DNA of 64,000 nt from contig NZ_JADIVZ010000003.1 of NCBI RefSeq assembly GCF_015319165.1, positions 1 through 64,000 of the forward strand. The letters are read 5' to 3'. A model generated the notes under the pieces. The model did no database searches and was not told the DNA's origin. It was given only the letters and a program-made list of their open reading frames with translations. This DNA comes from Nocardioides acrostichi. Lineage in GTDB: Bacteria; Actinomycetota; Actinomycetes; Propionibacteriales; Nocardioidaceae. Below are positions 9,463 through 24,080 of the stretch, piece after piece (position 1 is the first letter of the stretch; each line of letters begins with the position of its first letter). Both the position numbers and the translations under genes were made by a program.

Positions 9463-9582
9463 CCTGGACGGGTGATTCATCACCGGTGCCGCCAGGATGC
9501 GTTGTACGCAACATCCCGCCGGATGGCGCCGATGCCCCATAGAGTTCTGACAGGACGCGCGGACGAAACGGGGGTGATTGAG

Positions 9583-18936: not shown

Positions 18937-19311
18937 TCAGGCGAACGACGCGACGGCCAACGCCGCGGCCAGGACAGCGGTGCCGAGCCCCGCGACGACA
19001 CTGACGCCGGCGTTGGTCGCGGCGAAGCGGCGCGAGCCCGTCTCGGCCAGACGCAGGGTCTCGAACGAGAAGGTCGAGTAGGTGCTCAGGGCGCCGGCCA
19101 GGCCGACGCCGACGAGGGCCTGCAGCGATTCCGGCACCGCGGTGACCGTGGTGGCGCCAACCAGAAAGCCGAGGATCGCGCAGCCGAGCATGTTGGCGCT
19201 GAACGTGCCCCACGGGAATCCGGTGTCGTGGCGCGACTGCACGACGCGGTCGACGGTGTAGCGCAGCGGTGCACCGACCATGGCACCGACGATCACCATC
19301 GCCCAGGTCAC
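18937..19311 (-). CDS. crcB: fluoride channel protein CrcB/FluC (second subunit)
   Basis: The 124-residue protein has four hydrophobic helices and Fluc hallmarks: GAPLRYTVDRVV, FPWGTFSANMLGCAILGFLVG and GALSTYSTFSFETLRL, with the Asn of the pore (SANMLG) and the STYSTFSFE break-in-helix segment. Fluc channels export fluoride as dual-topology dimers; paired genes encode oppositely oriented subunits. GTG 19311 overlaps the TGA of the upstream crcB copy by 3 nt, so both are translated together below the riboswitch-like leader. Confidence 0.88.
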   Translation of the reverse strand: MTWAMVIVGAMVGAPLRYTVDRVVQSRHDTGFPWGTFSANMLGCAILGFLVGATTVTAVPESLQALVGVGLAGALSTYSTFSFETLRLAETGSRRFAATNAGVSVVAGLGTAVLAAALAVASFA

Positions 19312-19817
19312 GATGCAGCCTCGGTTCGGTCGAAGACCGCGAACCGGGTCAGCGTGACGCCGACCCACACCGCGGCCACCGCGGCGAGCACCGTGCCCGC
19401 GGCGTAGAGCAGCGCCGTCCCGGAGGTCTGTGGGGTCAGCAGCCTCTGCAGGTCGACGGTGGCGCTCGAGAAGGTCGTGAAACCACCCAGCACACCCGTG
19501 CCGAGAAACGGGCGCACCAGATGATGGGTGGTGAACCGCTCGCTCACCAGCACCATCAGCACGCCCATCAGGCCGCACCCGACGACGTTGATCCAGAACG
19601 TGGTCCAGGGGAAGTGGCCAGTGGGGGTCGGCCAGAGGAGGCCGGCCCCGTACCGCGCGCACGCGCCGACGGCACCGCCGAGGGAGATGGCAACCAGGAT
19701 CTGGGCCTGCTCGCGACGGACGACGCCGGGGCTGGAGTCGTCCCAGGCGACGTCCGCGGTGTCCGGATCGGTGGGTTCGGACTGCCAGCCGCCCTGGGGC
19801 CGGGGCTTCGAGGACAC
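19308..19817 (-). CDS. crcB: fluoride channel protein CrcB/FluC (first subunit)
   Basis: The 169-residue protein has a hydrophilic N-terminal extension of about 45 residues, then the Fluc core: GGAVGACARYGAGLLW, HFPWTTFWINVVGCGLMGVLM, GGFTTFSSATVDLQRLL. GTG 19817 is chosen because an AGGAG site lies 5 nt upstream and that site takes part in a hairpin of the leader; a GTG at 19886 would lie inside the aptamer. With the downstream copy it probably forms a heterodimeric fluoride exporter in the cytoplasmic membrane. Confidence 0.88.
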   Translation of the reverse strand: MSSKPRPQGGWQSEPTDPDTADVAWDDSSPGVVRREQAQILVAISLGGAVGACARYGAGLLWPTPTGHFPWTTFWINVVGCGLMGVLMVLVSERFTTHHLVRPFLGTGVLGGFTTFSSATVDLQRLLTPQTSGTALLYAAGTVLAAVAAVWVGVTLTRFAVFDRTEAAS

Positions 19818-19821
19818 AGCT

Positions 19822-19890
19822 CTCCTACCGTCGATGTCAGGTAGGGACTGTTGGCGGCCGTGGCCGCGGTTGTCGGCGAGCCCCACCGCC
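19822..19890 (-). promoter_or_regulatory. fluoride (crcB-motif) riboswitch-like leader with SD-sequestering hairpin
   Basis: The leader of the crcB pair reads, on the minus strand, GGCGGTGGGGCTCGCC, then ACAACC, then the helix GCGGCC-AC-GGCCGC, then CAACAGTCCCTACC. This order of short helices, the GGGGC loop and the pyrimidine-rich CCCTAC 3' end follows the crcB-motif aptamer. The 3' end CTACC can also pair with GGTAG of the GGTAGGAG ribosome site (19822-19829), giving a translational switch. Proximity to crcB strongly supports the call. Confidence 0.7.
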
Positions 19891-19927
19891 GTCCGGCTCA
19901 GCCTAACCGACGAGCCCGGACACGGCC

Positions 19928-19956
19928 GTGGCCCGGCCTCCCTCGAGCCGGGCCAC
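19928..19956 (-). terminator. hairpin terminator, perfect 10-bp stem
   Basis: GTGGCCCGGC (19928-19937) and GCCGGGCCAC (19947-19956) form an uninterrupted 10-bp stem with a 9-nt loop. It lies 18 nt past the stop of the 27-residue peptide gene and before the crcB leader, so it should insulate the two minus-strand transcripts. There is no T-run, as is common in high-GC actinobacteria. Confidence 0.6.
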
Positions 19957-19973
19957 GATCGCGCACCGAGCGC

Positions 19974-20057
19974 TCAGAGCCGGTTGCCGCGCACGCGACC
20001 CAGGATGAACAGCACCAGCGCGATGATGGCCAGCACGATCAGAATGGTCCAGAGCAT
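19974..20057 (-). CDS. 27-residue single-pass membrane peptide
   Basis: A short gene begins at ATG 20057, preceded at ideal distance by GGAGGAA. The product is a hydrophobic helix (MLWTILIVLAIIALVLFILG) with a positively charged tail RVRGNRL, typical of small membrane peptides that modulate larger membrane proteins or stress responses. It ends just before the strong hairpin and lies about 105 nt from the divergent amidohydrolase start. The strong ribosome site, the clean hydrophobic pattern and the terminator support it as a real gene. Confidence 0.62.
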   Translation of the reverse strand: MLWTILIVLAIIALVLFILGRVRGNRL

Positions 20058-20161
20058 TGCTTCCTCCTTGATTGGTTCTGCTCACGGTGCCCCGCCGACC
20101 GGTGATCGATGTCACCCCTTCGGTGAGCGGTGTGCTCAACCACTCGCGGCATGCTGGTCCG

Positions 20162-21947: not shown

Positions 21948-24080
21948 ATGCATCGACAGATCGCCGGCCGGCTGACCGGCCGCGTCACCAAGTGGCTCGT
22001 GCTCGTCGCCTGGCTCGTGGCCGCAGGCGGTCTCGGAACGTTGAACGCGAAGCTCGCCGACGTGCAGAACAACGAGGCCTCCTCCTGGCTGCCCGGATCG
22101 GCGGAGTCGACCCAGGTGATCGACGCCCTCGCGAGCCAGATGGACCCCAATCAGATCCCGACCCTGGTGGTCTACGAGGCCGACGACGGCACGCTCACGG
22201 CGTCCGAGAAGCAGGCGATCGGCGAGCAGGCTCAGCAGATGGCCGGTCTGGACGGCGTGATCGATGCCGGTGTCGTGCCGCCCGAGATCGCCGCGAAGGC
22301 CGGCATGGGCGGCTACTCCGACGACGGTGCCGTCGCCGTCACGCTGGTCACCTTCGACTTCGGCGCGAACGGCTGGAACGACATGCCGGACGCGGCCAAG
22401 GGTCTGCGCGACATCGCGCAGATCGATGGCGTCACCGTGCACCTGGCCGGAGCCGGCGGCCAGGCGGCCGACTCGGCCGAGGCCTTCGAGGGCATCGACA
22501 CCACCCTGGTGCTCATCACCCTGGGCGTGGTGATCTTGATCCTGCTCCTCACCTATCGCTCGCCCATGCTGTGGATCCTGCCGATCGTGTCGGCGGTCGT
22601 CGCTTTGTCGTGCGCGGGCGGCATCGTGTACCTGCTGGCCAAGTACGCCGACGTCACGGTCAACGGTCAGAGTCAGTCCATCCTCTCGATCCTGGTCATC
22701 GGCGCCGGCACCGACTACGCCCTCCTGCTGACCGCCCGCTATCGCGAGGAGCTGCGCAAGCACGAGGATCGGCACGAGGCCATGGCGGTCGCGTTGCACC
22801 GCGCTGCTCCGGCGATCCTCGCCTCGGCGGGCACCGTGGTGCTCGGCATGCTGTGCCTGCTGCTCGCCGAGCTCAACTCGACCGCCGGTCTCGGCCCGGT
22901 CAACGCCGTCGGCGTCGCCGTCACGTTCCTGGTCATGGTCACGCTGCTGCCCGCGCTGCTGGTGATCTGCGGACGCTGGGTGTTCTGGCCCAAGCGACCG
23001 GCGTTCGGTTCGCGCGAGCCCAACGAGTCCGGACTGTGGGCGAAGGTCGGGGCGCTGGTGCAACCGCACCCGCGCCGCGTGTGGATCCTCACCAGCGGGC
23101 TGCTCGCACTCGCCTGCCTCGGACTCTTCACCCTCAACACCGCAGGACTCTCCACCGAGGACACCTTCACCCACGAGACCGACTCGGTGAAGGGCCAGAA
23201 AGTGCTGCTCGAGCACGGGCTGCTCGACACCTCCAACACACTCCAGGTCGTCGCCGCCGCCGACGACATCGACGAGGTCGCGGCCGCGGTCGCCGGGCAA
23301 CCAGGCGTGGGCACGCCGTCCGCCGCTCGACCCATCGGGGGAGGTCGGTCGTTCTTCGAGGCACCGATCGCCGGCGACGTCGCCAGCGCCGCCACGCAGG
23401 ACGTCGTGAAGCAGGCGCGGGTGGTGGCTCACCGGGTGGACGACGCCACCCTCGTGGGCGGCTGGCCGGCGGTGTACTACGACACCAAGGTCGCCTCCGA
23501 CCGCGACACGGAAGTGATCATCCCCGTGGTGCTCTCGCTCGTGATGCTCGTCCTGGTCGTGCTGCTGCGCAGCGTGTTGGCGCCGGTGCTGCTGATCGGC
23601 ACCGTGGTGTTGAGCTTCGGCGCCGCCCTGGGCATCTCGGCGCTCCTCTTCGAGTACGTCTTCGGCTTCGCCGGCTCCGACCCCGGGTTCCCGCTGTTCG
23701 CCTTCGTGTTCCTGGTCGCGCTGGGCATCGACTACAACATCTTCTTGATGACACGGGTGCGCGAAGAGGCCGCACAGATCGGCACCCGGGCCGGGGCCCT
23801 GGTGGCCCTGCGCTCGACCGGCGGCGTCATCACCTCGGCCGGTCTCGTGCTCGCGGCCACGTTCCTCACCCTCGCCTCGATCCCGTTCGTGTTCCTCGTC
23901 GAGCTCGGCGTGGCGGTGGCCCTCGGTGTGCTGCTCGACACCTTCATCGTGCGCTCCGTCCTCGTCACTGCCCTGGCCCTCGACCTCGGCGACCGCATCT
24001 GGTGGCCCGGGCGGGCGTCGACCCCGCCCGCACCCGCGGCCAACGACGCGGGGGAGCCCGCTGGCACGATGCCCGCATGA
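21948..24080 (+). CDS. MmpL-family RND transporter
   Basis: The 710-residue membrane protein has the MMPL layout: an N-terminal helix, a large extracytoplasmic domain (about residues 40-185), a five-helix bundle (about 185-345), a second loop domain (about 390-520) and a second bundle (about 525-680). Typical blocks are VIGAGTDYALLLTARYREEL and FVFLVALGIDYNIFLMTRVREE, which carry the Asp-Tyr pairs used in proton relay. MmpL proteins export lipids, siderophores or drugs in actinobacteria. Its stop overlaps the start of an enoyl-CoA hydratase gene (ATGA), linking it to acyl metabolism. Confidence 0.9.
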   Translation: MHRQIAGRLTGRVTKWLVLVAWLVAAGGLGTLNAKLADVQNNEASSWLPGSAESTQVIDALASQMDPNQIPTLVVYEADDGTLTASEKQAIGEQAQQMAGLDGVIDAGVVPPEIAAKAGMGGYSDDGAVAVTLVTFDFGANGWNDMPDAAKGLRDIAQIDGVTVHLAGAGGQAADSAEAFEGIDTTLVLITLGVVILILLLTYRSPMLWILPIVSAVVALSCAGGIVYLLAKYADVTVNGQSQSILSILVIGAGTDYALLLTARYREELRKHEDRHEAMAVALHRAAPAILASAGTVVLGMLCLLLAELNSTAGLGPVNAVGVAVTFLVMVTLLPALLVICGRWVFWPKRPAFGSREPNESGLWAKVGALVQPHPRRVWILTSGLLALACLGLFTLNTAGLSTEDTFTHETDSVKGQKVLLEHGLLDTSNTLQVVAAADDIDEVAAAVAGQPGVGTPSAARPIGGGRSFFEAPIAGDVASAATQDVVKQARVVAHRVDDATLVGGWPAVYYDTKVASDRDTEVIIPVVLSLVMLVLVVLLRSVLAPVLLIGTVVLSFGAALGISALLFEYVFGFAGSDPGFPLFAFVFLVALGIDYNIFLMTRVREEAAQIGTRAGALVALRSTGGVITSAGLVLAATFLTLASIPFVFLVELGVAVALGVLLDTFIVRSVLVTALALDLGDRIWWPGRASTPPAPAANDAGEPAGTMPA

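Follow-up and report, generated by a model that had tools for sequence, protein, structure and literature searches.

The locus

In the window, the whole stretch of 64,000 nucleotides of Nocardioides acrostichi DNA that was analysed, a leader that begins at position 19,900 of the minus strand lies upstream of two overlapping crcB genes (Table 1), bearing out the gene pair placed behind it in a preliminary description of this DNA as a fluoride riboswitch. The two genes overlap by four bases, GTGA, and both encoded proteins scored far above the Pfam CRCB cut-off, as expected of Fluc/CrcB channels such as PDB 5a40, which crcB1 matched at E = 4e-7. Unlike that channel, the window carries two divergent proteins (32% identical in a pairwise alignment), and both narrowly missed the TIGR00494 cut-off of 80.45 (74.6 and 79.8). 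For the putative two-gene Fluc channel of the preliminary description, the pairing of the genes is what was observed. No consensus sigma-70 promoter was found by scanning at the leader, which carries a −10-like box only; 40 of the 76 distinct leaders of the variant had a TANNNT hexamer starting between −24 and −13 of P1, against a mean of 2.9 and a maximum of 7 after shuffling. Just upstream, a 27-codon open reading frame (19974–20057, minus strand) with its own ribosome site (MLWTILIVLAIIALVLFILGRVRGNRL) had no Pfam or NCBIfam match, and is followed by a strong GC hairpin (19956–19928) without a T run. An MMPL family transporter gene (21948–24080, plus strand) lies near the fluoride operon, with no sign of membership in it.

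Table 1. Features of the leader and the crcB genes, all on the minus strand. R1 is the covariance model described in the text; residue numbers follow the Thermotoga petrophila scheme.
Feature	Position	Strand	Details and basis
Likely −10 box TAGGCT	19900..19905	-	9 bases before P1; TANNNT recurrence in variant leaders
Variant fluoride aptamer	19835..19899	-	Full RF01734 alignment, 23.4 bits, model 1–64; 82 bits with R1, whose training sequences include this one
P1 helix	19890-19887/19878-19875	-	Letters verified
P1 stem-loop GGCG-GUGGGGCU-CGCC	19875..19890	-	Letters verified, R1 alignments, pair counts
G6 and U7	19886 and 19885	-	Letters verified, alignments
5' pseudoknot strand	19884-19879	-	Pairs with 19849-19844
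P2 helix and hairpin	19867-19863/19858-19854; hairpin 19854..19867	-	Two-sided changes in all five pairs, n = 99 sequences; 4 cells unpaired
C38, A39, A40, C41	19853, 19852, 19851, 19850	-	Letters and alignments
3' pseudoknot strand AGUCCC, then U48	19849-19844, then 19843	-	Letters and alignments
Anti-Shine-Dalgarno arm CCUACC	19840..19845	-	Overlaps pseudoknot bases 46–47 and U48
GGUAGGAG: partner arm and Shine-Dalgarno AGGAG	19822..19829; arm 19829-19824, AGGAG 19826-19822	-	Letters, arm covariation
crcB1	19308..19817	-	GTG start (19817-19815), 169 aa, N-terminal extension of ~40 residues; Pfam CRCB 88.8 bits, residues 43–154
crcB2	18937..19311	-	GTG start overlapping crcB1 stop, 124 aa; Pfam CRCB 83.8 bits

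A probable fluoride aptamer below the Rfam cut-off

At the gathering threshold, cmscan found neither RF01734 (Fluoride) nor any other Rfam family in the window. When 401 bases were searched at an E-value threshold, RF01734 aligned from end to end at 19899–19835 of the minus strand (E = 2.3e-4), so that the covariance-model check named in the preliminary description gave a full-length match, but one of 23.4 bits against a curated gathering score of 34. Across the 4.33 Mb genome the leader was the best of 14 weak RF01734 matches (E = 5.9e-4) and alone spanned model positions 1–64. A chance match is ruled out because this weak match is full-length, is the best in the genome and recurs upstream of crcB; its score falls below the Rfam cut-off because it belongs to a recurrent sequence variant. 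The window leader is genuine: it represents a recurrent variant of a known riboswitch class that scores below the threshold.

The coordinates of each structural element were verified letter by letter. Every pair of P1, P2 and the interleaved pseudoknot can form in the window, including the G11–U44 wobble among the six pseudoknot pairs, and A40 and U48 are both present, which would preserve the bases of the reversed Hoogsteen pair. The crcB-motif helix order originally proposed for the leader thus stands, and the variant shares with RF01734 both these elements and its position before crcB or, in relatives, DUF190 and enolase genes. It differs from RF01734 in usually having A39 and in having G–C at 6–38 and C41; the changes at the conserved positions 6, 38 and 41 had been overlooked in the preliminary description, which likened the leader to the crcB motif.

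Residue numbers refer to a Thermotoga petrophila sequence that we take to be the reference, reached by alignment through the Rfam model. Pair names follow the available part of PMC11586693 and, like all published statements given here, come from excerpts of the cited articles. In the published aptamer A6–U38 is a reversed Watson–Crick pair and A40–U48 a reversed Hoogsteen pair (excerpts of PMC11586693 and PMC10687018). The window reads G6, U7, G8, C38, A39, A40, C41 and U48; the A6–U38 pair is therefore absent, with G and C in its place and pairing potential kept, and the conserved U41 is replaced by C. We infer that G6–C38 is a trans pair, and a precedent for such an exchange exists in the 15–48 trans pair of tRNA, which occurs naturally as both G–C and A–U (excerpt of PMC7566577), although that is a tertiary pair of tRNA and not part of a ligand pocket. 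The change at position 41 is surprising given the published mutational data: a U41A mutant of the Bacillus cereus switch does not respond to ligand (PMC11077080, in the part available), and a uridine numbered U38 in the excerpt of PMC8004769 forms imino hydrogen bonds that are stabilised by fluoride. We equate this uridine with U41. Residue 41 is functionally sensitive by these data, and C41 could not form the same imino bond.

Covariation of the fold

A structural scan in which P1, the pseudoknot, G8, A40, U48 and P2 were obligatory, and which was blind to positions 6, 7, 38, 39 and 41, returned 105 distinct matches in 234 loci (680 kb, searched on both strands), a non-random sample gathered mainly by RF01734, R1 and CrcB searches. 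A shuffled control gave five matches in one strand of 338 kb, equivalent to ~20 chance matches in both strands of 680 kb; 11 unrelated matches were dropped, leaving 94 that were counted. Separately, 99 distinct aptamers from 100 loci were aligned to R1, a covariance model built on 14 sequences taken from the genus and from one other family. Over 17 pairs, 99.8% of cells were paired and 11 pairs showed two-sided changes, in an alignment fitted to R1, whose own structure holds P1 and P2 only. None of 500 shuffles reached this level, and slid controls were at most 57.3% paired. Two-sided changes were found in P1, P2 and the pseudoknot, whereas the P1 stem-loop GGCGGTGGGGCTCGCC is identical across the 14 model sequences.

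In the same 99 aptamers, positions 6 and 38 were G–C in 88, A–U in ten and G–U in one, with no mismatch; positions 40 and 48 were A–U in 98 and G–U in one; and position 41 was C in 86, with U in the other 13. Three G–C copies in this set keep U41 (L189, L194 and L140), and two A–U copies outside it have C41 (L196 and L220 at 9496–9541), so position 41 can be separated from the 6–38 pair. U7 is changed to A in five of the 99. Departures from the common pattern were also seen: G–C variants with U7 changed to A (GGCGGAGGG) at L099, L194, L197, L211, L215 and L220; a fourth P1 pair of U–A instead of G–C (GGCT...AGCC) at L181 (846–904) and L213, a two-sided P1 change within the G–C variants; and G40 in place of A40 at L198, the sole such change, where the linchpin would be G–U.

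The ribosome-site helix and the proposed switch

The arm CCUACC is complementary to GGUAGG of the ribosome site, which overlaps the Shine-Dalgarno sequence AGGAG. It had been proposed that CUACC (19844–19840) pairs either within the aptamer or with the ribosome site, thereby hiding the latter. The ribosome-site helix covaries, but the canonical fold uses C46 and C47 (pseudoknot) and U48 (40–48 pair) only, the next three bases lying outside the pseudoknot. Leaders followed by crcB and a recognisable Shine-Dalgarno sequence were compared at 68 loci (67 G–C and one G–U; one further leader had no Shine-Dalgarno sequence). Their arms change together, as in CCUACCUG/CAGGUAGG, CCUACUUGC/GCGAGUAGG, UCCCUGCGUG/CACGCAGGGA and CCUAUCUCG/CGAGAUAGG. 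The longest helix averaged 7.77 bp over 61 distinct pairs, with plainly wrong ribosome sites at L097, L106, L200 and L176 retained, compared with 6.45 bp when arms were re-paired between loci (maximum 6.87 bp; none of 200 re-pairings as high). In a fixed register (columns 49–54, 32 distinct pairs; 12 of the 68 rows left out, as their best helix was truncated or at another place), the counts were 159 pairs and 21 two-sided changes, against 137 and 7.3 in shuffles, with neither value reached in 1,000; this register was chosen from the best helix and so favours pairing, a bias of which the helix-length test is free. The suggestion of a hidden ribosome site and a translational switch is thus upheld, as far as compensating changes in relatives can indicate it.

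The anti-Shine-Dalgarno hairpin is present in the minimum free energy fold computed for the window leader. When the holo fold was constrained, modelled accessibility of the Shine-Dalgarno sequence in the window increased from 0.31 to 0.64, and the median over 61 of the 68 leaders (seven with helices below 6 bp omitted) from 0.22 to 0.55; the constraint itself accounts for part of this gain. Of the 61, 46 rose and three fell by more than 0.1. No terminator-like site was found within 19700–20100, and an intrinsic terminator was rejected as the platform on that ground.

Because the ribosome-site helix is kept by compensating changes, the best reading is a fluoride-responsive translational ON switch built from a variant fluoride aptamer, which we regard as probable with good confidence. 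With fluoride and Mg2+, P1, P2 and the six-pair pseudoknot would fold and be locked by A40–U48; occupation of C46, C47 and U48 by this holo fold would leave the ribosome site free, and both CrcB proteins would be made. Without fluoride, CCUACC would pair with GGUAGG and translation would be blocked. The standard architecture would be retained throughout, with G–C for A–U in the long-range reversed Watson–Crick pair 6–38 and C for U at residue 41. Sequence comparison speaks for both the folds and the alternative helix; fluoride binding and the direction of regulation we infer. The same aptamer could instead act mainly on transcription, by termination or pausing, with the Shine-Dalgarno complementarity secondary, as the B. 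cereus and T. petrophila switches work on transcription (PMC11077080, available part) and Rho-dependent control is compatible with the sequence. We consider this unlikely, given the lack of a terminator-like site and a covarying anti-Shine-Dalgarno helix that overlaps the pseudoknot.

Translational control has been described for the fluoride riboswitches of Pseudomonas syringae and Burkholderia pseudomallei (excerpt of PMC13273304), and the switch proposed here would resemble them in acting without transcription termination. It may differ in that the 3' arm of the aptamer itself, CCUACC, is here the anti-Shine-Dalgarno sequence. Such an arm would make a compact translational platform, with possible use in high-GC hosts.

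Distribution among relatives

Genomes were searched in draws from the genus, order, class and phylum (Actinomycetota). Within the genus, crcB was present in 55 of 59 genomes and the G–C form was read upstream of it in nine of the 59 (RF01734 matches at E up to 0.1); for most crcB genes there, no switch was detected. R1 had matches at E up to 1e-6 in 36 of 196 order genomes, in 62 of 394 class genomes (the other 332 having none) and in 16 of 396 phylum genomes; looser tallies at E up to 1e-3 (65 for the order, 60 for the phylum) include weak matches. Reading of all 68 class matches gave 64 with G6/C38, one with G6/U38 (L152), one with A6/U38 and C41 (L196) and two that could not be parsed (L219, with P1 disrupted, and L221, probably false). 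The G–C form thus occurred in 59 of 394 class genomes (R1 matches, each read), compared with 11 of 394 with RF01734 over its cut-off in a draw of equal size, where 19 of 21 matches were read and all 19 were A–U. Five genomes were on both lists and 65 on either. At 20 loci spanning the variant (19 G–C, one G–U), RF01734 was detected in 11 at E up to 0.5, with 19.9–32.5 bits; none reached 34 bits, and nine had no match at that E-value.

The phylum matches that were read divided by lineage: class members (L109–L115) were G–C and non-class members (L116–L124) A–U. This split suggests, from the sequences read, one or a few 6–38 changes near the base of the class, and the exchange may have originated in one or a few inherited events. 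Among weaker phylum matches, L126, L127 and L132 were A–U-like, and no readable aptamer was found at L125, L128–L131 or L133–L137, nor at L233 and L234 among 11 further order matches. A crcB1 protein search for related loci gave two only. Actinacidiphila L068, the better protein match, had no match in the structural scan, and L069, from a MAG, carries the A–U form with a weak R1 match. A pattern scan of viral contigs returned no matches. On plasmids, four of 126 matching records cover at least 80% of the aptamer, all four from actinomycetes and all four G–C; a fifth candidate, from Kitasatospora, proved on reading not to be an aptamer. Searches of open-access PMC articles, most of them on fluoride switches, turned up no description of an actinobacterial G–C variant, although an earlier one may exist.

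This distribution bears on whether the leader is a decayed, non-functional fluoride riboswitch, in which 23.4 bits and altered conserved positions would signify lost constraint. Identical changes recur in the 59 class genomes, compensating changes are found in P1, P2, the pseudoknot and the anti-Shine-Dalgarno helix, and the P1 stem-loop is invariant in the model sequences. Decay was rejected on the recurrence and the compensating changes, and we hold it to be extremely improbable.

Downstream genes and the ligand

A CrcB-like frame, recognised by phmmer at E up to 1e-3 with both window proteins as queries, starts within 150 bases downstream of 68 of 76 distinct G–C variants. The other eight precede enolase (L108 by Pfam, L226 by eye), DUF190 (L073), an MFS transporter (L209) and a dynamin-like GTPase (L150), run into contig ends (L177, L188) or are ambiguous (L220); A–U copies stand upstream of crcB in three of 17 cases. 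Enolase is a target of fluoride. L208 has two variants upstream of crcB frames, with DUF190 following in the second case, and an A–U copy upstream of a NUDIX gene. A–U and G–C copies lie back to back, within ~250 bases, in three divergent intergenic regions of two genomes (L140/L220 and L211 in G644, L181 in G642), where only the G–C copy of L211 is followed by crcB. On plasmid pFRL5 of Streptomyces sp. F8 the variant lies upstream of crcB-DUF190-crcB as annotated. In the window, the fluoride-resistance genes downstream are the two crcB genes, an association by position only. From these neighbourhoods fluoride is likely the ligand of the G–C variant, being by far the simplest common one.

A changed ligand, for instance a metal or a different small anion, with the variant still controlling transporters, would account for the joint alteration of positions 6, 38 and 41 (often with 39) in most copies, 85 of the 99 aptamers having G6/C38/C41. 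The associated genes are nevertheless fluoride genes (crcB for 68 of the 76 copies, with enolase and DUF190 among the rest), including those on pFRL5, and the two forms share the three back-to-back regions, though crcB stands behind the G–C copy of L211 alone; we therefore judge a change of ligand very unlikely.

With fluoride retained as the ligand, we tentatively raise the possibility, on which we remain more doubtful than convinced, that actinomycetes mostly use a second form of the fluoride aptamer. Its G–C trans pair and C41 would rebuild the ion pocket and alter fluoride affinity, Mg2+ coordination or switching kinetics relative to the A–U form, which in some of these genomes still serves other genes; the variant would be a structural subclass, tuned in its own way, that is lost when the Rfam cut-off is applied. 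If the main reading of the variant as a fluoride switch is right, actinomycete fluoride riboswitches would be several-fold commoner than that cut-off shows (in the 394-genome draws, 59 with the G–C form and 65 on either list, against 11 over the cut-off), and annotation that relies on it would show no switch for crcB genes that follow the variant. The variant would also amount to a double mutation made by nature in a non-canonical pair next to an ion pocket, A–U to G–C, mostly accompanied by U41 to C. One could then test whether fluoride affinity is set by the bases at 6, 38 and 41, and why U41A inactivates the B. cereus switch, as given in the excerpt cited above, when C41 is common in the variant.

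Two further arrangements were seen. In one relative, at L016 (2615–2671, the place also covered by L073 at 461–517), a second G–C aptamer lies ~1.1 kb after the first, upstream of DUF190, and each of these tandem aptamers has its own ribosome-site arm (GGTGGG and GGTAGG). On plasmid pJCM12687 of Mycobacterium branderi (L236), a variant aptamer precedes a hypothetical gene, with neighbouring universal stress, NUDIX and NADH-quinone oxidoreductase subunit H genes of the kind found beside A–U aptamers elsewhere.
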